Origin: a virus
IMG/VR virus record: IMGVR_UViG_3300032278_000107
Coordinates: 1 to 25,543 of that record
Reading direction: 5' to 3' (one strand)
Length of the DNA: 25,543 bases
The notes beneath the pieces are model-generated. The model ran no database searches. It was not told the origin of the DNA and worked only from the letters and a program-made list of their open reading frames with translations. This document shows, one piece after another, positions 8,928-25,543 of the stretch (position 1 is the stretch's first letter; each line of letters starts with the position of its first letter). Both the position numbers and the translations under genes were made by a program.

Positions 8928-8966
8928 CAGCATCTCATTTGGGAGGGTGGGATGCTGTTCTTTTTT
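8928..8966 (+). terminator. Intrinsic (Rho-independent) terminator
   Basis: CAGCATCTCA (8928-8937) pairs with TGGGATGCTG (8948-8957) in a 10-bp stem with one G-T wobble; the loop is TTTGGGAGGG and TTCTTTTTT follows. It lies 36 bases after the stop of the 108-aa gene and separates the 8042-8892 cluster from the amidoligase operon. Confidence 0.8.
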
Positions 8967-9055: not shown

Positions 9056-9310
9056 ATGACAATATATGAAATAAAGAAACGTACAAAAAAAACAGCACCT
9101 TATTTTTTCAGCAGTGATACGCTACGTTTTAACGGTCAAAAGTTAACTGATTTTAAAGTAGAAAAAGAGGCCGATGGTAGATATAAAATATCGGCACCCG
9201 TCGATCCATTTTTCCTTGGTTACAAATATTTGATAGAACACAAGGATACGGTAAGATATTTTAACCCTAAAAATAATGTACTAGAAAACTCTTGTGGGTG
9301 TACACGATGA
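9056..9310 (+). CDS. Small protein heading the amidoligase operon (unknown)
   Basis: An 84-residue basic protein. AGAGGA lies about nine bases before the ATG. It contains an aromatic motif PYFFSSDTLRFNGQKLTDFKV and ADGRYKISAPV, then a C-terminal VRYFNPKNN, a pattern (KxTxPYFFSxxTLRFxGQ...ADGRYxIxAP...YFNP) that I have seen in small accessory proteins of phages and plasmids, without a known function. The end is Cys-containing (ENSCGCTR). Its TGA overlaps the ATG of the amidoligase gene (ATGA), so the two are translationally coupled. It starts a new transcription unit after the terminator at 8928-8966, in a 160-base gap whose A+T-rich end (TATTAT ctaaggcc ATAATA) may hold the promoter. Confidence 0.7.
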   Translation: MTIYEIKKRTKKTAPYFFSSDTLRFNGQKLTDFKVEKEADGRYKISAPVDPFFLGYKYLIEHKDTVRYFNPKNNVLENSCGCTR

Positions 9311-10815
9311 ATACAGACAATAAAACAGAACCTTTATTTGTTTGTCACGATTGCGAATCGGAAACAGATAATGAGGATGATGTAATTTATCTTGAATATG
9401 TTGAGGATTATGTCTGTACAGATTGCCTAGATGAAAATTATTTTAATTGTGATAGATGCGATGATGCCACACTAAATGATGATATGTATGTTGTACAACC
9501 AAATGATAATGGGTGGTGTGAACATTGCTATGAAAATTATTCTGTATACTGCGAATCTTGTGATTGTTCTTATGATGAAGATGTGGTGAGTGTGAATGAA
9601 TATAATTATTGTGAAGATTGTGATGAGGAACGTGAGGAAAGAAATGGATCAGATGGAATTCACCCATATTCATATAAACCAGATATAATAGTTGGATTAA
9701 TGAAATTCAATAGAGCAAGAATATATAAAGATGATGATCCCAATTCAGAAGATATGGAAAATAAAGTGGTGAAAAGATTGGTTAGTGTGGGTTACAATGC
9801 TTATAAACGAATGACCGATAAGAAAACAAAATTAGATCAAGATGTTTTTAAAACAAGTTTTGGCAATTATGAAGATACAGCCGAAATAATTGGATTTGAA
9901 TTAGAGGTAGAAAATAAAGCCAGTGGTCGATCAACAAGTGATATAGCTAATGATTTCATTGAAAAAATGGATGATAAGGACGAAAACCATGTCTATCTAA
10001 AATCAGATAGTAGCCTATCTAATGGATTTGAAATTGTAACCCATCCAAAAAGTTACAGTGCATGGATGTCTAGCAGAGATATGATACAGCCAATATTTGA
10101 TCTACCAAAGTATGGGGTTAGATCACATGATACACAAACATGTGGATTGCATTTTTCATTAAACAGGAAAGCCTTTTCACCAATACATTTATTAAAGTTT
10201 TCAACATTTATATATTGGAATCCAATATTCATTAAAGATATTTCTAGACGATCATGGAGAAATTTGGTATCGTGGGCCAGTGTGTTTTCCGCTCACAACT
10301 ACAACACTGTAGGTGATCTAGAAATAAAAAGTATAATGGCAACCAAAAAAAGTATTGAAAGATATTTATACGACAATACGTTTTTCACTAAATGTGGGGA
10401 GTTGTTTCACCCATTATATACAAAAAAAGCATTGATCGAGAATACGAGAAACATAAGAAATACAGCAATCAATTTACCAGATGATAGAGTTGAATGTAGA
10501 TTCTTTAGAGGCACGTTAAAGAAAGAAACTTTTTTGATGAATCTACAATTTATACATTCACTATTTGAATTTACAAAACAAGAAACATTTCAGAATTTAT
10601 CAATATTCGATTTTGTAAAGTTTAATAAGAAAAATGATTTTCATTATGTTAATGAATATTTAAAGTTAGTACCTACAGATCAAATCAGATTTTACCACGA
10701 TTATTATATGGATGCTGTAAGGAATGAGAAAGATTTTAAAAACAAAAAAGAACCTTGCGCTGTTTTTACAATGCGAGACGATAATAACTATAAGATTAAA
10801 CCAAGGAGTGGGTGA
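9307..10815 (+). CDS. Zinc-ribbon / amidoligase fusion protein
   Basis: A 502-residue protein; a TTG start 15 bases upstream is possible, but the ATG at 9307 overlaps the previous stop (ATGA) and follows GTGGGTG. Residues 13-105 carry six CxxC pairs (C13/16, 37/40, 48/51, 71/74, 82/85, 102/105), i.e. three tandem zinc-binding modules. Residues about 190-440 match the Amidoligase_2 (COOH-NH2 ligase) family: GFELEVE with E198, E200 and E202; a KSDSSL segment at 232-237; E242 in GFEIVTHP; H282 in CGLHFSLN; and RVECRFFRG with E396, R398 and R401. In that glutamine-synthetase-like fold such residues bind metal and ATP to form an amide or isopeptide bond. The glutaminase next door could provide ammonia. 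Substrate unknown. Confidence 0.85.
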   Translation: MNTDNKTEPLFVCHDCESETDNEDDVIYLEYVEDYVCTDCLDENYFNCDRCDDATLNDDMYVVQPNDNGWCEHCYENYSVYCESCDCSYDEDVVSVNEYNYCEDCDEEREERNGSDGIHPYSYKPDIIVGLMKFNRARIYKDDDPNSEDMENKVVKRLVSVGYNAYKRMTDKKTKLDQDVFKTSFGNYEDTAEIIGFELEVENKASGRSTSDIANDFIEKMDDKDENHVYLKSDSSLSNGFEIVTHPKSYSAWMSSRDMIQPIFDLPKYGVRSHDTQTCGLHFSLNRKAFSPIHLLKFSTFIYWNPIFIKDISRRSWRNLVSWASVFSAHNYNTVGDLEIKSIMATKKSIERYLYDNTFFTKCGELFHPLYTKKALIENTRNIRNTAINLPDDRVECRFFRGTLKKETFLMNLQFIHSLFEFTKQETFQNLSIFDFVKFNKKNDFHYVNEYLKLVPTDQIRFYHDYYMDAVRNEKDFKNKKEPCAVFTMRDDNNYKIKPRSG

Positions 10816-10817
10816 TT

Positions 10818-11609
10818 ATGTGTGTTGCTGTACTAAAGCCAAAAAATTCTAAAATAGACGATAAGACAATGGAAAAATGTTGGGAAACAAATCCAGATGG
10901 TGGTGGATTTATGTATGTTAATGACAACAAAATTATTATTCGGAAAGAAGTGGATTCATTTGAAAAGTATATTTCAATGTATAGAAAACATGAAAGATTA
11001 GTTGATACAGATTTTATTTTGCATTTCCGTATAGCGACAAGTGGATTAATTGATGTTGCAAATACGCATCCTCATAAAGTAAATGATGATGTTTACATGG
11101 TACATAATGGAGTTATTGATCGGTGTTCGGTTGCTGATTCTGAGATAAGTGATACCATGAAATTCTGTAAGTTCATTTCAAATTTACCAAATAATTTCAC
11201 AGGGAATAAATCCATGATTGAATTAATCACTGGATATATAGGAACTGATAAAATGATATTTCTAAATAGAAATGGTGATATAAAAATTGTGAATGAAAAC
11301 AAAGGAATTTGGAAAGATGGCAATTGGTATTCAAATGGCAATTGGGATTACACTAGAAAAAAATGGTATCAGCGACAAACCGAACTTAACAATCGCATAA
11401 TGGAAAATGTTGAATTACATAGAGGTGGCCGATGGGACACTTCTGAGGAATATGGAATAATTGAAAACGATATTGATAATGACGGTATTAATAGATGCAC
11501 TGATTGTGATGAGGCGATTGGAAAATATGAAGATCACGATTATGACGGTAGATGCTATTCATGTTGGAGATTAGAAACAGAAACAGCAAGATATTATGGG
11601 GATATTTAA
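10818..11609 (+). CDS. Class II glutamine amidotransferase with C-terminal zinc knuckle
   Basis: A 263-residue N-terminal-nucleophile amidotransferase. A GTG six bases upstream is in frame, but the ATG at 10818 is correct for the family: Met removal leaves Cys2 as the catalytic nucleophile, and AAGGAG sits nine bases upstream. Further glutaminase motifs are HFRIATSG (69-76), NTHPH (82-86) and VHNGV with N97/G98, matching the usual HxRxAT, NxHP and HNG motifs for glutamine binding and the oxyanion hole. The domain ends near residue 165. A Trp/Arg-rich linker and a CxxC-CxxC zinc knuckle (C227/C230, C246/C249) follow. It starts two bases after the amidoligase stop. Likely role: release ammonia from glutamine for the amidoligase (inference from class and context). 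Confidence 0.85.
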   Translation: MCVAVLKPKNSKIDDKTMEKCWETNPDGGGFMYVNDNKIIIRKEVDSFEKYISMYRKHERLVDTDFILHFRIATSGLIDVANTHPHKVNDDVYMVHNGVIDRCSVADSEISDTMKFCKFISNLPNNFTGNKSMIELITGYIGTDKMIFLNRNGDIKIVNENKGIWKDGNWYSNGNWDYTRKKWYQRQTELNNRIMENVELHRGGRWDTSEEYGIIENDIDNDGINRCTDCDEAIGKYEDHDYDGRCYSCWRLETETARYYGDI

Positions 11610-11666
11610 TCAGGGAAATGCGCCACAAGGAGATAATCCCAGGGAATCCAGCTCAGAACAAAAATA

Positions 11667-11678
11667 TTATGTATAATT
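11667..11678 (+). promoter_or_regulatory. TTATGTATAATT half-site before the 95-aa gene
   Basis: Exact copy of the left arm of the dyad at 13044-13071, three bases before the ATG at 11682. It contains TATAAT, so it could also act as a -10 box giving an almost leaderless message, or as a repressor half-site. Confidence 0.45.
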
Positions 11679-11681
11679 GAT

Positions 11682-11969
11682 ATGAACAAGATTCAACAAA
11701 ACATTGGGATTGCTCAAAAGCAAACCATTGAGGGAAAAAAGGACGGTGGTTTACCGCCACCAGTGGGCAAATTTCATAATAGTGAATGTTCCTGTGAGGA
11801 ATGTCGTAGATATTATACCGTTGAGGATGGTGAGGTAAAGGAGAAAACAAAAAGAATTGTAAACAGTGATAAACACAAAACTCTGGATTGCTCAGAATTT
11901 ATTGAAAACAAGAGGGTCAATAAATATAGGGAATCATTTTCTATTATGAGGGGCGTGGAATTTAGATAA
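11682..11969 (+). CDS. Small Cys-containing protein in the amidoligase operon (unknown)
   Basis: A 95-residue protein. It begins MNKIQQNIGIAQKQTIEGKK, has a Gly/Pro-rich hinge (GGLPPPVGKF) and a compact Cys cluster C36, C38, C41 (ECSCEECRRYY) that could bind zinc with a fourth ligand such as His32. The second half is charged and basic. No ribosome site is visible; the ATG lies just after the TTATGTATAATT element. Its TAA overlaps the next ATG by one base. Function unknown; co-transcription with the amidotransferase is likely but an independent start at the element is possible. Confidence 0.6.
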   Translation: MNKIQQNIGIAQKQTIEGKKDGGLPPPVGKFHNSECSCEECRRYYTVEDGEVKEKTKRIVNSDKHKTLDCSEFIENKRVNKYRESFSIMRGVEFR

Positions 11970-12244
11970 TGTGTGGTTATATAAAAGATACGGATAAAAA
12001 CGATAACAATTGGGACACCTCTAGATGTTACGGTGGGCATGGTGACGGTTACGATCCAACAGTTTATAATTTGAAGGTACCCATTGGTATTGAATTAATT
12101 GATGAGGGTGACGTTGGGGATGGTCTTGTGCTAAATTATAATAATTACGATTATTATTACGATTATGAAAATGAATTACAGGATACTTTTTGGGATGCTG
12201 TTAGTTTAATAAAAGATAAAGATTGGGAGAAATTTAATGATTGA
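11969..12244 (+). CDS. Small acidic Tyr/Asp-rich protein (unknown)
   Basis: A 91-residue, very acidic protein. The ATG overlaps the previous TAA (TAATG). The N-terminus is MCGYIKDTDKND, superficially like the MCG start of class II amidotransferases, but no HxRxAT, NxHP or HNG motif follows, so it is not one. The middle is Gly/Asp-rich with Cys20 and HGDGYDP; then a strand-rich segment PIGIELIDEGDVGDG and a Tyr/Asp run (NNYDYYYDY). It may act as an acidic peptide substrate or partner of the neighbouring amidoligase, but nothing in the sequence proves this. Its stop overlaps the next gene by eight bases. Confidence 0.6.
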   Translation: MCGYIKDTDKNDNNWDTSRCYGGHGDGYDPTVYNLKVPIGIELIDEGDVGDGLVLNYNNYDYYYDYENELQDTFWDAVSLIKDKDWEKFND

Positions 12245-12380
12245 ATTTACCTGTAGTGTTTGTGAAAATAAATATTCCTCAATAGGTGGTGTCCCAGAGG
12301 AATGTATTTGTAATAATTGTTGGGAATATGATGATATTTTAGATGATGATGATGAAAAGGAGTTTAATAAAAATGCCTAA
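12237..12380 (+). CDS. 47-aa zinc-ribbon protein
   Basis: A short gene with GGGAGA before the ATG, overlapping the 91-aa gene by eight bases and the next gene by eight. The product has C6xxC9 and, 14 residues later, C23xC25xxC28, i.e. a CxxC...CxxC treble-clef or ribbon (TCSVCENKYSS, then CICNNCW), and an acidic tail (DDILDDDDEKE). It fits the zinc-knuckle habit of the operon and may be a free counterpart of the amidoligase N-terminal modules. Function unknown. Confidence 0.6.
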   Translation: MIEFTCSVCENKYSSIGGVPEECICNNCWEYDDILDDDDEKEFNKNA

Positions 12381-12978
12381 TTCAATAAAGCAAGAATATC
12401 CAACAAATTCTAAAACGTCTAATTATTATGAAAATATACCTTTTTTTAAGAAGTTGCCACCTAGACAAAAAGTGATGGTACATAGATTATATCGTACAAA
12501 GAAGCGAATCAAAAAGTGGGCGGATACAAATGGTTGGGAAAATCTAAAGAATTATACTGAGAGTATAGATGAAAATGGAAATACTCAAGATTATCAGACT
12601 GATCATGACTATGTTAATGGTTTTTTTAAGTATATGCTCAATTGTAGCCTTGTAGACTTGCAAAAAAGTGATAGTACAAACGTGAATTATTCCATTTATC
12701 GTGGATTTAGTCTTGAAGAGATTGAAACATTAAGTAAAATATGGGCAAGATACCCAGATACAGTCCAATATGTTCAAGACATGCGAGAACATAGGAATAT
12801 GCACTATCCAAATGGTTGGAGGAGAGTGGCAACGGTCAATGCGAATGAAATAGTTAGGCGGTACATGGAATCCGATAGCACTCAGGATTATCTGTCTGGA
12901 TGGAACCATCCGAACAATGGATGGTCAAATCATTTTGGAAATATGGTCGATGATCTAGAGAGATTGAATAATGCATAG
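12373..12978 (+). CDS. 201-aa protein at the end of the amidoligase operon (unknown)
   Basis: The frame is open to 12343 (a run of Met codons), but the ATG at 12373 is preferred: AAGGAG lies ten bases upstream, and the upstream Met run is the shadow of the GAT codons of the previous gene. The N-terminal third is basic and helical (PPRQKVMVHRLYRTKKRIKK); the middle is acidic and Asn/Tyr-rich (DYQTDHDYVNGFFKYML); the C-terminal part has Trp/Asn-rich WNHPNNGWSNHFG. There is no zinc motif. I do not recognise it. It is the last gene of the block; a 173-base regulatory gap follows. Confidence 0.65.
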   Translation: MPNSIKQEYPTNSKTSNYYENIPFFKKLPPRQKVMVHRLYRTKKRIKKWADTNGWENLKNYTESIDENGNTQDYQTDHDYVNGFFKYMLNCSLVDLQKSDSTNVNYSIYRGFSLEEIETLSKIWARYPDTVQYVQDMREHRNMHYPNGWRRVATVNANEIVRRYMESDSTQDYLSGWNHPNNGWSNHFGNMVDDLERLNNA

Positions 12979-13043
12979 AGATTGTACTTTAGTTTCATCT
13001 TCAAGTAACGCCAGCAACCAGGGGCAGAAGACTTTTTCAAATA

Positions 13044-13085
13044 TTATGTATAATTCATCAATTATACATAACGTGGATCAGATCC
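13044..13085. promoter_or_regulatory. Perfect 28-bp dyad plus adjacent GGATC dyad (operator cluster)
   Basis: TTATGTATAATT (13044-13055) and AATTATACATAA (13060-13071) are perfect reverse complements around CATC. Three bases later GGATC-A-GATCC (13075-13085) forms a second perfect dyad. They lie 67-108 bases before the ATG of the RHH-like gene. The first arm recurs exactly at 11667-11678 and imperfectly at 8000-8019. Each arm carries a TATAAT-like core, so a repressor site over a promoter is the simplest reading (inference). Confidence 0.65.
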
Positions 13086-13151
13086 CGCTCTAGCAGGTAG
13101 TTGTGGAGGCATGGCGTCTAAAAGTATCTTGAGAGAAAGGGCAAGATTATA

Positions 13152-20472: not shown

Positions 20473-20774
20473 CAGACGAAGCATACGCAATACGCCAAAG
20501 AAATAGGTTTTTTAAACAAAATCCTAAAAGCGGTAGGTCTATAAAGTGGTTTGTGGACAACGCAAGAATAAGTACGCCTTGCGACTTCAACGATTACAAG
20601 CTTGATTCACACTACGCAGATAGGTTTATAAAACGCTGTCCTGTATGTTGTGCTTGTTGGCAGTATAAGGTAGCCTTCACCAAAAGCATACCAATTTATT
20701 ATGAAGATTTCCCCTCTTTAGGGAAAGAAGAAAGTGTTTGTCCCCGCTGTTCTACCAGTGCTCGACAAAACTAA
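20469..20774 (+). CDS. Zinc-ribbon protein at the end of the early operon (unknown)
   Basis: A 101-residue protein read from a TTG that overlaps the previous stop (TTGA); GGAGG lies about 20 bases back and may instead serve a short frame at 20456. C57xxC60 (RCPVCC) and C91xxC94 (VCPRCST), 30 residues apart, make a zinc ribbon; the N-terminus is basic (IRQRNRFFKQNPKSGRSIKW). Its end overlaps the stop of the convergent tail gene by 23 bases. Function unknown. Confidence 0.6.
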   Translation: MTDEAYAIRQRNRFFKQNPKSGRSIKWFVDNARISTPCDFNDYKLDSHYADRFIKRCPVCCACWQYKVAFTKSIPIYYEDFPSLGKEESVCPRCSTSARQN

Positions 20775-21777
20775 AAGACGAGTTCCATGTGTTTGGGGTG
20801 ACTTGAGTAGATTCTATATTGCCACTAGCAAGCCTGTATAATCCAAATCCAGACTCTGCTCCCGCCCCAGCGGAAGAACCATTATTTGTAAACAAAAACG
20901 GTTGATGTTCTCCGAGAGCCTTATTGTAAAATTGCGAATATAAATCTGCTCCATCAATTACATCACCAGCCGCTCCACGCATGTTTGACATAAATAAATC
21001 AGTGTCATTTATATAGCTGAAGTCCATGTTCCATCTACGTCTACCCATGTGTCTCGATATTTCATACGACGCTGTTTCTGATTGATACGTTGCTATAATC
21101 CACGGGTTTGTAACCGCCCAAGGTGGAGACCCTAAGTATGATGCAGAAGAAAAAGACTGCCCTCCAGCAGATGTTAATATTTTAGATCCTTCATAATCTA
21201 CGGAAAACTTCAGGTTGGCGTTTGGAGAATGTGGGAAATCTATGTATTCGCCCAATAACACGTTTCCTATTTTTACGGGATAAGAGAAATTTGTACTAAC
21301 AGGATTAATTATTAACCTATAGAACCGATTGTTTGCAGTTGGCTCAGGCCACGTTATTAAGCTCCATCCATTATAACCTGGCTTAATATAACCACCCTCG
21401 TATGTAGCGTTGACTATTTCTGTTTCAGTATCATCTGTTATGGAATTTACGTTGGAATTAAAAGCACTAACACTACATGATGCCAACGAAAACTTAGCAC
21501 CAGCATAGTTTAGGTTATGCCCCAATATAGCCAGGAAGTTTGCCTCGCTATTAGTACCAGAACTAAAACCAGTGTCAATAATAATTGTTATAGGATGAGA
21601 ATTTGTTGCCCAAGTCACAAAATTCGTTGGTCTCATATCAAACAAATCGCCTAAAGAGCCAGACGTAGGTTGTGGGTCTGCTAAATCGTGATCACCTATG
21701 ACTCTCCACCCCGTTACCAAGTCGTGAGTGACCCTGTCCATGTATGCTCTTGGAATACCTGATCTGTTATAACTCAT
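20752..21777 (-). CDS. Tail structural protein (unknown fold, beta-rich)
   Basis: A 341-residue protein with AGGAG before its ATG. It is Ser/Thr/Asn/Gly- and aromatic-rich, mostly beta (FVTWATNSHPITIIIDTGF, NNRFYRLIINPVSTNFSYPV), with a C-terminal RRRWNMDFSYINDTDLF segment like those of distal-tail or fibre-associated proteins. It follows the tail hub gene by 16 bases, so it is a tail-tip component (distal tail or hub-associated). No enzyme motif is seen. It is the last gene of the leftward tail operon and runs into the early operon's end. Confidence 0.65.
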   Translation of the reverse strand: MSYNRSGIPRAYMDRVTHDLVTGWRVIGDHDLADPQPTSGSLGDLFDMRPTNFVTWATNSHPITIIIDTGFSSGTNSEANFLAILGHNLNYAGAKFSLASCSVSAFNSNVNSITDDTETEIVNATYEGGYIKPGYNGWSLITWPEPTANNRFYRLIINPVSTNFSYPVKIGNVLLGEYIDFPHSPNANLKFSVDYEGSKILTSAGGQSFSSASYLGSPPWAVTNPWIIATYQSETASYEISRHMGRRRWNMDFSYINDTDLFMSNMRGAAGDVIDGADLYSQFYNKALGEHQPFLFTNNGSSAGAGAESGFGLYRLASGNIESTQVTPNTWNSSFSFVEHW

Positions 21778-21792
21778 TTTATGCTCCTGCTT

Positions 21793-24147
21793 TTATCCTA
21801 CTTGTACTGCTGTAATATTACAACCAAACGGCAATTTACTAATATCGGTAATTAGATAATAATCGTCTGCCGCCATTGCCGTTCCATATATTTTTATTTT
21901 ACTGTCCCAGTTCACAAACGATACAACGTCACCCAATTCCAAATTATTATAATGTGGACGAAGACACTTTATCTCTAAAACAGGCTTCTGCCCTTGAAAT
22001 AATATTCTATACCCTTCCGCAAGAGCGTTTGCGGTGTCGTCATCTAAAATTCCAAAACCATCATAGCTTAGCTTCCCCGTGTGGTTTGGGTCAGTAAGTT
22101 CACTAACAAAACCCTGTACATCCGTTGCTTCTTTTGTAAATGTTTCGTTAAGATAGTCGTAAGCATATTTCACAGTAACATCATTTTTTATTTGACTTGT
22201 CGTCGTTTTAGAAACGCCGTTTAATACTATTTCTTGATAATCAATTACTTTATCTGCTGAAGTATACCCTGCTCCTCTTCGGAGTGTCTTTATTTTGAAC
22301 TTTCCATCACCACCTATAAAAACATAAGAGAAGCACTGAGCCGCAATCCTCTGTATTAGCTCTCTTGAATCCATAAACTTATAGTGGCTAAAGGCAAATT
22401 TTATTTTTATTGTAGAAATGTCAAATGCGTTGGCTATATGACCATCGGTTGTGTTGCCAGCTTCATCAAACGAATCATAGTCTATTGCGCTGGAAGAAAG
22501 GCCCAGTTCAGACCTTAATATATTCTCAATTATATATACAGGGTTTTCAATTAAACCCCCACTATTATAACCATTGTTTCTAGAATCTTGATCTACCCAA
22601 CTACCAAATTCCCTTCCCTTACCAGAATAATATAAATATTGAAAACTTTCACCCGTTTGACCAGAAACAACCTCTGTGTTAACTATCTTATAACCACCTG
22701 GATCGTTGCGCTCACCAGTATATACAACCTCCTGTTTAACTATCGGCTTACCAACCATTACTTTAGGTATAACCTCAATTTGTACGCCAAGCTGTGAAAC
22801 GGTATGCCCTGACGTTCCGCTGTCTATTTTACGATGCGCAATTGTAAGTATATGGTCTTGAAATGATAACGTCTGTTGTTCGTCATCATCAAAATCATTC
22901 CCAGAAATCGCTCTCTTAAAAAAACCAGTACCTTCTGTACCGCCACCCAATCCGCCATCCAAACCAGGGGACTGAACCTCCATCATCCCTTCCTCTGATC
23001 CACCTGTCTCATAAATGTTTGTCTTATACACCAAAACATGCATATTAGAATCGCTTATCATTCTCCCAACTTCTTTCATTTCTGGAAACCTGAAATAACA
23101 GAATCTCTCTGTAGGGTATGTGGCTCCAAATTCTGCTGTCGTATCAAATTCCCCATCAGAATCAATTGATCTGTCGCAAACATTTGAGAAATGCCCAGTG
23201 GTTATAACGTCCTCCGATGTTATGCTACGAAGATTCAAATATGCAAAATAACTATGACCAGACACATAAAGAACATTGTGACCATCTTCTGTTGGCGCAT
23301 AGCTGTTTCCCAACGAACCAACAGCAACTTTTGCATTTAGCTTGTTACACTGTAAGTATTCGCCCTCTGCGCCCAGATAAACGGCATCAGCATTTAAACT
23401 GTTTAATACAGTTAGGTTGTGGCTTGATCCATAAGGCTGATCTGAGTCTGGCAATGATTTTCTAAACCCATTTTCATCTTCCTCATCTATGACCACTGCG
23501 GGGAAATGACCCTTTCTAAAGTGATAATAGAAGTCACCGTACGAACCTTCATCGGGAGAATCTGATAGGGCGTTATCGAAGTCGCCATAACTCATAGGAA
23601 CTGGTGATCCTATATTAGTTTTTGGTGCTCTAGGATATGTAGCCACATCAACAGAGTGAAATGGGACTTTTTTATGAAGCCTAGATGAATTGTCTAGGAG
23701 GGTGAGGGTTATTTTTTCAGTATCATAGTTGTGGTCTCCAGCTATGACTCCAGAACCAATCATATTGTCTGAATCGTCAAACGTAGCCGTGCCTTTGGTA
23801 CACTGAAACAATTCCCATTTGCGATGAGCATAGTTCACCTCCGAAGACAAGTCAGAAAACCTAACACGACCTGTATCCGCTATGTTTCTTATACTTTCCT
23901 CTGTGTTTATAAGAGTGACAGACATGTTAGCCTGAGTCACTTGGAACTTGTAAAAATCTAAAGATTGGGTTAGAGAACCCCAGGAAGAAACAATCCCGTG
24001 ATATACGTCGCTCCCGTTTACTCTGTGCTGATCACTTACCCCAGTAAACTCACTTGAGCTCTCGTCCTTATAATATAATTTAAGAACCCAAAATGATACG
24101 TCTTGGTTTTTTAGTGAGGCATCAAGGCTATTGTCAAAGTCAAGCAT
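21793..24147 (-). CDS. Tail hub / central tail tip protein
   Basis: A 784-residue protein, large and Ser/Asp/Gly-rich with long beta segments, directly downstream of the tape measure in the usual order tape measure - hub - distal proteins. The C-terminal third has IQRIAAQCFSYVFIGGDGKF, KIKTLRRGAGYT and DYQEIVLNGVSKTTTSQIKN; such patterns (host-independent baseplate-hub strands with a conserved FIGGDGKFKI-like turn) occur in siphovirus tail tip hub proteins. It overlaps the tape measure by eight bases and has a weak ribosome site, so coupling is likely. Hub assignment is by size, order and composition; no lysozyme or peptidase domain is visible. Confidence 0.65.
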   Translation of the reverse strand: MLDFDNSLDASLKNQDVSFWVLKLYYKDESSSEFTGVSDQHRVNGSDVYHGIVSSWGSLTQSLDFYKFQVTQANMSVTLINTEESIRNIADTGRVRFSDLSSEVNYAHRKWELFQCTKGTATFDDSDNMIGSGVIAGDHNYDTEKITLTLLDNSSRLHKKVPFHSVDVATYPRAPKTNIGSPVPMSYGDFDNALSDSPDEGSYGDFYYHFRKGHFPAVVIDEEDENGFRKSLPDSDQPYGSSHNLTVLNSLNADAVYLGAEGEYLQCNKLNAKVAVGSLGNSYAPTEDGHNVLYVSGHSYFAYLNLRSITSEDVITTGHFSNVCDRSIDSDGEFDTTAEFGATYPTERFCYFRFPEMKEVGRMISDSNMHVLVYKTNIYETGGSEEGMMEVQSPGLDGGLGGGTEGTGFFKRAISGNDFDDDEQQTLSFQDHILTIAHRKIDSGTSGHTVSQLGVQIEVIPKVMVGKPIVKQEVVYTGERNDPGGYKIVNTEVVSGQTGESFQYLYYSGKGREFGSWVDQDSRNNGYNSGGLIENPVYIIENILRSELGLSSSAIDYDSFDEAGNTTDGHIANAFDISTIKIKFAFSHYKFMDSRELIQRIAAQCFSYVFIGGDGKFKIKTLRRGAGYTSADKVIDYQEIVLNGVSKTTTSQIKNDVTVKYAYDYLNETFTKEATDVQGFVSELTDPNHTGKLSYDGFGILDDDTANALAEGYRILFQGQKPVLEIKCLRPHYNNLELGDVVSFVNWDSKIKIYGTAMAADDYYLITDISKLPFGCNITAVQVG

Positions 24148-25543
24148 TTAACTTTGTGCCTGTTCCAGTTGCCCTGTTTAGGGCTGGAATAAGTTCGTTT
24201 CTAATATAATCTTCCTGCACTACTCCGCCTGAAATGTTGATATTAATTGACGATCCTTGGCTGTTTTGTTGTCCTCCACCAGAAAGAGGCGTTATATTAA
24301 CATGTTCAGGGCCAGCCTCACCAGCGACTATCATTGTAGGGCTTGTAACTACTTCGTTCATGCCGTGCTCCGCAAACTTAATGCTTCTAATTGCGGCTTT
24401 AGCTATTTCAAGGCTTGCAAGTGCGGCCAGAACTCCAGGCCCACCTAAACCAGGAATCCAAGCAAATGTAAGAGCCTTATTCAGTGCTCCTGTAGCAAGA
24501 ATCGCTTGTTGCATCATTTGCATAACCTGAAGCATAAACCCTTTTAAGGCTTCACCTGGCCCCAGGCTAGGGTCGAAGGCTTGGTTCAATGCTTTCGACA
24601 CCGCACCGCCCATCTCTATCGCCCTTCCTTCTAATACGGCAATCTTACTATTTAAATTTTCTAATACGACAATCTTTTGTTCATCACTTATGGCATTTTC
24701 TTTATCGTTTTCTACCTTTTCCTTCTGAGCTAAAAGCGCATCTATTTGCCCCTGCTTTGTTTGAGCGTACATGCCGACGAGCTCTTTGTTTATTTTATCT
24801 TGCGCCTTCATCGCATCAGATGCATCGTCGGTTGCTACTTTTAATTTGACGTACTCTTTAATAAGAGCTTTCAGTCCTTCGGGCAAATTATCTAAAGACA
24901 GTCCAAGAGTATCAGCCGCCCTTATCATTTCTATTGTAGCTAGAGTAGCCTCTGATTCACCCAGCTTCTTCTGTTCTTGAATATCAACCATCTTCTGATA
25001 TTTTTTTACCAGTTTTTCTAATTGATCTGCTTGATAACCCTCTTGAGTAGCTAGTGCCGCCGCAAGCTCATCCTTAAGTGCTTGTATTACTGCTTTCTTT
25101 AAAGCAATTAAACCCTCTTGGCTTTTCTTTGATGATTTCCAGCCCTTAGCCTTTTGTTCTTCAATGAACACGAGCATTTTCAACTGAGTCTTAAGGATCT
25201 CCTCATGCTTTGCAATTTTTTCCCTTAGAGTATCAACGGAATCGCCTTGGTTTTGTATTTCTTCTATTAGCCTTTTAATATTAGCGGTCTGATCTCTTAT
25301 TACTTGATTCTGTTTCTTCTCTGCTTCAGTTAACCCTTCTGTTTTGTCGAACCATTTTTGCTTGGCATATATAATGCCCTCTACTGCGACGATAAACAGC
25401 AACATCCACTTGTTTTTCGTCATCACCCCATTCAATAATTGCATGGCCCTCCGCAAGTTCTTTACACTAAGGGCGGCCCTATTGAAATAAAGAGCCAGAA
25501 TAGCTACAGCACCACCATAGACTATTAATCTATCTGTGTTGGA
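24140..25543 (-). CDS. Tape measure protein, C-terminal part (cut by window edge)
   Basis: The frame is open to the right edge (at least 467 residues); the TTG at 25454-25456 is internal, since the upstream 29 codons stay open. Two hydrophobic segments occur (LIVYGGAVAILALYF near the edge and WMLLFIVAVEGIIYA at about 25380-25410), then long Lys/Glu/Gln-rich coiled coil (LIEEIQNQGDSVDTLREKIA and more), a Gly/Pro hydrophobic stretch (AFAWIPGLGGPGVLAALASL-like) and a basic/acidic end with QNSQGSSININISGGVV. Length sets tail length, and the hydrophobic parts may enter the host membrane. It starts the tail operon seen here; chaperone genes upstream are outside the window. Confidence 0.75.
   Translation of the reverse strand, partial: SNTDRLIVYGGAVAILALYFNRAALSVKNLRRAMQLLNGVMTKNKWMLLFIVAVEGIIYAKQKWFDKTEGLTEAEKKQNQVIRDQTANIKRLIEEIQNQGDSVDTLREKIAKHEEILKTQLKMLVFIEEQKAKGWKSSKKSQEGLIALKKAVIQALKDELAAALATQEGYQADQLEKLVKKYQKMVDIQEQKKLGESEATLATIEMIRAADTLGLSLDNLPEGLKALIKEYVKLKVATDDASDAMKAQDKINKELVGMYAQTKQGQIDALLAQKEKVENDKENAISDEQKIVVLENLNSKIAVLEGRAIEMGGAVSKALNQAFDPSLGPGEALKGFMLQVMQMMQQAILATGALNKALTFAWIPGLGGPGVLAALASLEIAKAAIRSIKFAEHGMNEVVTSPTMIVAGEAGPEHVNITPLSGGGQQNSQGSSININISGGVVQEDYIRNELIPALNRATGTGTKLNA

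Follow-up and report, generated by a model that had tools for sequence, protein, structure and literature searches.

Described cassettes and the gene pair of the window

The proposal of a phage cassette for the modification of peptidoglycan reportedly originated with Iyer et al. in 2009. A cassette of this type is predicted in RIO-1, PSA-HP1, phiEco32 and the LUZ24-like podoviruses, where it is proposed to alter the host surface against other phages, with peptidoglycan as the predicted substrate (PMC5498523, PMC3890496). The OM43 phages MEP401 and MEP402 have a pair consisting of an amidoligase (PF12224) and a glutamine amidotransferase (GATase) (PMC10580990). Here a ligase gene (9307-10815) and a glutaminase gene (10818-11609) are described from the 25,543 nucleotides of the IMG/VR virus record IMGVR_UViG_3300032278_000107, the whole of which is called the window. 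The pair is a divergent and minimal form of the known predicted cassette, bearing four-cysteine fingers on both proteins. With a probability of roughly two in three, the two proteins constitute an ATP- and glutamine-dependent amide synthetase. This reading is favoured because of both folds, the complete catalytic residue sets and the near-obligate pairing of the genes as an accessory early-gene cassette.

The phiEco32/RIO-1-type cassette and the window have in common a glutamine synthetase (GS)-like amidoligase and a class II GATase, found together among early genes. The former additionally has a gamma-glutamyl cyclotransferase (GGACT), an ATP-grasp enzyme and another ligase; none of these was found in the 25.5-kb record, itself possibly a fragment. 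The OM43 pair comprises the same two families in the same order, with approximately 38% identity to the window in the glutaminase and 25% in the ligase. The OM43 genes overlap by 10 bases while those of the window are two bases apart; CxxC motifs number two in the N-terminal part of the OM43 ligase and six in that of the window, and the C-terminal finger of the window glutaminase is missing from the OM43 protein. In Phage-ZRK32 the amidoligase and GATase genes, to which glutathione synthase and gamma-glutamylcyclotransferase are added, are interpreted as nitrogen metabolism (PMC10945688). The likeness to the window is that an amidoligase and a GATase occur in one phage.

Two further systems resemble the pair in composition. 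MurT and GatD are a Mur-ligase fold protein and a class I type glutaminase. They are encoded by two co-transcribed genes and, as glutaminase and ATP-dependent ligase, form a peptide-acid amide in peptidoglycan (PMC3267633, PMC5871853). The window likewise has a glutaminase and a predicted ATP-dependent ligase from paired genes, but the relation is an analogy of action and not homology. In ergothioneine synthesis a GS-fold ligase, EgtA, and a class II N-terminal nucleophile (Ntn) enzyme, EgtC, are part of one pathway; EgtC removes gamma-glutamyl groups and is not an ammonia supplier. The window glutaminase matches EgtC in fold only, with no sequence match at E 10.

The pathway was termed uncharacterised in an earlier note on this DNA. 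This is fair biochemically, but phage cassettes of an amidoligase and a GATase had already been predicted or reported (PMC10580990, PMC5498523, PMC3890496). What looks different here is the minimal unit and its four-cysteine fingers, of which the ligase has three and the glutaminase one.

The two enzymes and their linkage

The ligase gene (plus strand, ATG at 9307, stop at 10813-10815) encodes 502 amino acids and the glutaminase gene (plus strand, ATG at 10818, stop ending at 11609) encodes 263. Two bases separate the ligase stop from the glutaminase ATG, and reading of the sequence places a Shine-Dalgarno-like AGGAG for the glutaminase gene at 10804-10808 (plus strand), within the 3' end of the ligase gene. 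The pair is AT-rich, with a G+C content of 31% compared with 38% for the whole record.

The ligase was assigned to a family through its homologues and a structural model, because direct searches of Pfam, PHROG and PDB sequences named no family: the window protein by itself had no Pfam match and hence none to PF12224, it matched unnamed PHROGs only, and the PDB sequence search was equally without a family name. PF12224 (Amidoligase_2) was matched by 61 of the 71 aligned ligase homologues (E<=0.01), and the relative in OM43 phage MEP401 scored 21.0 bits against the cutoff of 22. Among the 71 ligases G196, E198, E200, D234, E242, R315, E396 and R398 do not vary, and the conservation of H282 is at least 90%; the residues predicted to bind metal and phosphate are among the invariant ones. 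The predicted catalytic domain, residues 190-440 (9874-10626, plus strand), holds E198/E200, D234, E242, H282 and E396/R398. In the AlphaFold2 model (predicted local distance difference test score 84.3, predicted template-modelling score 0.75), E198/E200, E242, H282 and E396/R398 are carried on strands. The top Foldseek matches in the PDB are YbdK (3.1e-4), glutamine synthetase (3.6e-4) and PafA (6.9e-4), with Dop and the plant glutamate-cysteine ligase further among the top matches, all of them of the GS fold. Both the GS-type fold and the E-x-E, E, H, E-x-R residue set of COOH-NH2 ligases are thus found in the window protein. The homologue alignment and the model agree in this, and 9307-10815 is predicted to encode a divergent Amidoligase_2-type ligase. 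The family had earlier been proposed from E198, E200, E202, H282, E396, R398 and R401. All seven residues are present and the proposal was borne out, but the conserved columns listed for the 71 ligases do not include E202 and R401.

The predicted N-terminal nucleophile of the glutaminase, Cys2 (10821-10823, plus strand), is invariant in 55 glutaminases, as are M1, R71, T74, G76, P85, N97 and G98; for H69, N82, H84, H96 and D112 conservation is 90% or more. The glutamine-binding motifs R71..T74, N82-H84-P85 and H96-N97-G98 are located at 11028-11111 (plus strand). In GlmS the counterparts of the conserved residues are the nucleophile, the contacts to the carboxylate and amine of glutamine and the oxyanion site. 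The window protein scored 19.1 bits against Pfam GATase_4, below the gathering cutoff of 23; a GATase_4/6 gathering score is an annotation threshold and not a biochemical feature, and the profile and fold evidence still place the protein. GATase_4 was matched by 44 of the 55 homologues, the family profile found GlmS (9.5e-13) and PurF (approximately 1e-9) in the PDB, and the model matched the glutaminase domain of GlmS in Foldseek (7e-8). The profile search gave no EgtC chain up to E 10. The signature of class II amidotransferases, with Cys after Met1, an Arg/Thr and Asp/Gly glutamine site and an Asn-Gly oxyanion motif, is present throughout. The sequence and the model hold every expected glutamine-binding residue of a class II (Ntn) glutaminase, and the activity is predicted. 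The enzyme class, the Cys2, HFRIAT, NTHP and HNG motifs and the position two bases after the ligase all agree with what the earlier note had described.

Viral contigs were scanned independently with the ligase and with the glutaminase as seed. A glutaminase was also found in 70 of 80 ligase-seeded loci, always immediately 3' of the ligase and on the same strand, and a ligase in 49 of 51 glutaminase-seeded loci, 48 of them within the adjacency limit. In related contigs the glutaminase is next in line after 122 of 131 complete ligase open reading frames (ORFs). Of the nine exceptions, those in L005, L061 and L142 are on contigs that stop soon after the ligase, and the rest are additional ligase copies or fragments in loci that hold a pair anyway. 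Over 58 non-redundant pairs the ligase and glutaminase distance matrices are correlated (r=0.74), the maximum of 2000 permutations being 0.15. Bacterial assemblies, from Bacillota and Actinomycetota, hold the pair too, some with tandem ligases. In the Bacillota assemblies L143-L148 the arrangement is either tandem ligases or two ligase-glutaminase pairs in succession. Among 57 non-redundant pair loci, GGACT was found near 2 and ATP-grasp near 6, which makes them optional additions; no partner of the ligase but the glutaminase is constant.

The relatives of the phage were gathered by terminase, and an absence was counted as true only where the genes for the small terminase and the Sak-type annealing protein were both on one contig. 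Of the contigs with both flanking genes, the window and L177 have the pair; L164 and L174, whose terminases are 95% and 76% identical to that of the window, lack it. No glutaminase was found anywhere on the 24-kb contig of L174. The L177 version, encoded on the opposite strand, has clearly diverged from that of the window, and L180 and L237 have yet other versions. Over all lineage contigs examined, 10 had both genes, none a single gene and 74 neither, but most of the 74 do not cover the region, and true absences are the bounded cases alone. Because one lineage shows both genes or neither, in differing versions, the two genes behave as one element, acquired, lost and exchanged as a whole.

The ORFs L011:1784-2275 and L012:4141-4560, each immediately upstream of a ligase gene, have HNH-type Cys/His motifs. 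In phage UFV-P2 an HNH gene sits between the amidoligase and the GATase (PMC3890496). Movement of the cassette may be helped by HNH endonucleases.

The conserved order, the co-inheritance and the all-or-none presence in the phage lineage support a functional link between ligase and glutaminase, as had been supposed. The earlier note had made its case depend on an Amidoligase_2 relationship, on retention of the Cys2, His and Asn motifs and on co-occurrence of the two genes, and all three came out for the pair.

The ligase has three four-cysteine fingers in front of its catalytic domain, not included in the earlier description, which also lacked that of the glutaminase. Finger 1, C13-x2-C16-x20-C37-x2-C40 (9343-9426, plus strand), has cysteines that are invariant in a six-sequence alignment, and finger 2, C48-x2-C51-x19-C71-x2-C74 (9448-9528, plus strand), was read from the same alignment. 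Finger 3, C82-x2-C85-x16-C102-x2-C105 (9550-9621, plus strand), is the one closest to the catalytic domain, and its conservation among the 71 ligases is at least 90%. The C-terminal finger of the glutaminase is C227-x2-C230-x15-C246-x2-C249 (11496-11564, plus strand). Several fingers are carried by most relatives, and the fingers may bind zinc. Their resemblance to LIM domains is weak (4 of 71 ligase members, best 7.8e-6; LIM chains of the PDB at E 0.03), too weak for a claim of homology, and they are called only four-cysteine, LIM/zinc-ribbon-like fingers. The co-occurrence of ligase and glutaminase fingers is high before allowing for the tree (raw 2x2 table 35/14/6/3). The tree shows two to four independent changes, too few to give the test power, and coupling is therefore not claimed. 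A phage protein without a recognised amidoligase domain has similar CxxC fingers (L008:4108-5616), and the finger module thus seems mobile between phage proteins. Of the papers in the searched collection that mention both amidoligases and zinc ribbons, none has a title that points to a fusion of the two.

Proposed reaction and competing explanations

In the proposed reaction, which keeps the ammonia feeding of the earlier note as the best reading, the Ntn glutaminase would take ammonia from glutamine by means of Cys2, and the GS-fold ligase would activate a carboxylate as an acyl phosphate with ATP and Mg. Attack of the ammonia on the acyl phosphate would yield a carboxamide. The two enzymes may form a complex through which ammonia would pass, and the fingers may dock them on each other or on a macromolecular substrate. 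The modified acid would most likely be a peptide-type carboxylate of the host, changed to the benefit of the phage, for instance so that rival phages or host enzymes are blocked. The acid of a peptidoglycan stem peptide is a candidate with somewhat less than an even chance of being the substrate, and a side chain or the C-terminus of a host protein is a more tentative one.

Several observations weigh against an amide synthetase. The window ligase itself is without a Pfam match, and its template-modelling scores in Foldseek are low (0.2-0.35), so that the fold class is supported but close kinship is not. The glutaminase fold also matches EgtC (approximately 2e-4 in Foldseek). Fusions of GATase and GGACT in two phages, MW202828 and C75C1, indicate gamma-glutamyl chemistry in at least some versions of the system. 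An Amidoligase_2 gene of Clostridioides phage AR1086-1 (L158:3683-5872) has no recognised GATase neighbour; it is followed by a gene resembling RlaP, an RNA repair nucleotidyltransferase.

The EgtC match and the fusions belong to the main rival explanation, in which the ligase would couple glutamate or a peptide to an amine and the gamma-glutamyl group would afterwards be taken off by the Ntn enzyme, in a cycle like that of EgtA and EgtC. YbdK and the plant glutamate-cysteine ligase among the fold matches of the ligase are in line with such a cycle. GGACT is recognised in the fused glutaminases L159:4001-5218 (7.5e-18) and L157:4001-4897 (2.7e-21), and in StenR_269 genes for GGACT, GATase, a GS-like ligase and an ATP-grasp-type protein follow one another in a single run. 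A phage GATase has also been classed as degradative (PMC5498523). The cycle is nevertheless unlikely for the window, in which no GGACT was found: the glutaminase profile is GlmS-like and not EgtC-like and GGACT partners are rare, and ammonia supply is favoured over gamma-glutamyl removal for these reasons.

A more specific form of the amide synthetase, in which the fingers guide ligase and glutaminase to a host protein or a nucleic-acid-bound complex and specific carboxylates are converted to carboxamides there, is a doubtful proposition. We know of no post-translational modification of carboxylate to carboxamide in phages.

Maturation of a small phage peptide, with a short downstream ORF as the dedicated substrate of the ligase, can be judged from the genes that follow the pair. 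These are ORFs of 95 (11682-11969), 91 (11969-12244), 47 (12237-12380) and 211 amino acids (12343-12978), all on the plus strand. The closest relative, L004, has a ligase and a glutaminase 76% and 75% identical to those of the window. Its counterparts of the 95-, 47- and 211-residue proteins are 93%, 96% and 56% identical, and the last of these proteins has no family match. The short ORFs close behind the pair, of which two are better conserved in L004 than the enzymes are, would suit a dedicated substrate. None of the four is found behind the pair in L011 and L012, however, and the acidic 91-residue ORF is missing even in L004, where the 95-residue ORF overlaps the 47-residue ORF directly, and in the other relatives. 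Peptide maturation is accordingly improbable, and the unit that is conserved consists of the two enzymes alone. The 91-residue protein had been suggested as substrate or adaptor, which was not borne out, and it was rejected as substrate on account of its absence in L004. The earlier description of four small downstream proteins, several of them Cys-rich, holds for their number, but only the 47-residue protein is clearly Cys-rich: it has five cysteines, with two CxxC motifs 15 residues apart that form a single finger of the same spacing as that of the glutaminase. The 95-, 91- and 211-residue proteins have four, two and one. On the whole the earlier observation is confirmed and its interpretation in part, as regards the families and the functional link but not the 91-residue protein.

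An auxiliary role in nitrogen assimilation by the host, as proposed for Phage-ZRK32, has very little probability. In the available text of that report an amidoligase, a GATase, a glutathione synthase and a gamma-glutamyl cyclotransferase are found in a phage that promotes host growth with nitrate or ammonium, and the genes were not tested singly (PMC10945688). The glutaminase spends glutamine rather than assimilating ammonia, and finger domains are ill-suited to the metabolism of free amino acids.

That the genes have separate functions and are neighbours through operon packing alone is strongly disfavoured: phage early operons are tightly packed and the Clostridioides phage amidoligase lies beside an RlaP-like gene with no GATase recognised, but the order hardly varies across very divergent phages and in the genomes of Bacillota and Actinomycetota, and in one phage lineage both genes or neither occur, for pairs of different subfamilies and in one instance on the opposite strand.

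Surroundings of the pair and its meaning for phages

An ORF of 84 amino acids with a weak resemblance to DUF7447 (9056-9310, plus strand) overlaps the start of the ligase gene by ATGA. It was rejected as a partner of the pair, not being kept upstream of other pairs; a homologue was found in L238 alone, without the pair. A hairpin like that of an intrinsic terminator, with a 13-bp stem followed by a T-run, precedes the unit at 8928-8957 on the plus strand (TTCTTTTTTC), in agreement with the terminator noted there before. The gap behind the unit had been described as operator-rich, which is overstated: 12979-13151 holds one perfect palindrome with 12-nt arms and a 4-nt loop (13044-13071), and the region has 28 promoter-like sites, about as many as its shuffled sequence (27.9). 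The palindrome is a possible operator or bidirectional terminator.

The record encodes a major head protein, the large and small terminase subunits, NinG, PDDEXK and exonuclease/metallophosphatase proteins. Three large minus-strand ORFs at 20752-25456 (341, 784 and 438 amino acids) have no match in Pfam or PHROG. Megablast of the record against 50,697 phage records gave no match, and hence no relative at the DNA level among them. A known anti-phage defence system was rejected, as PADLOC models matched none of ten proteins of the region, and DNA hypermodification was set aside since Pfam scans of the record revealed no base-modification gene, for deazapurine or otherwise.

In the available text of the reports, pairs of amidoligase and GATase in phages are variously called cell-wall modification, secondary metabolism or nitrogen metabolism, and no substrate test is published there (PMC10580990, PMC5498523, PMC3890496, PMC10945688). 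The present comparison cuts the system to a core of two genes that are gained and lost together. With one ligase and one glutaminase, the compact pair is tractable ground for the question of the substrate. If it is true that the fingers guide the pair to a macromolecule, this would be a new way for phages to modify host molecules.

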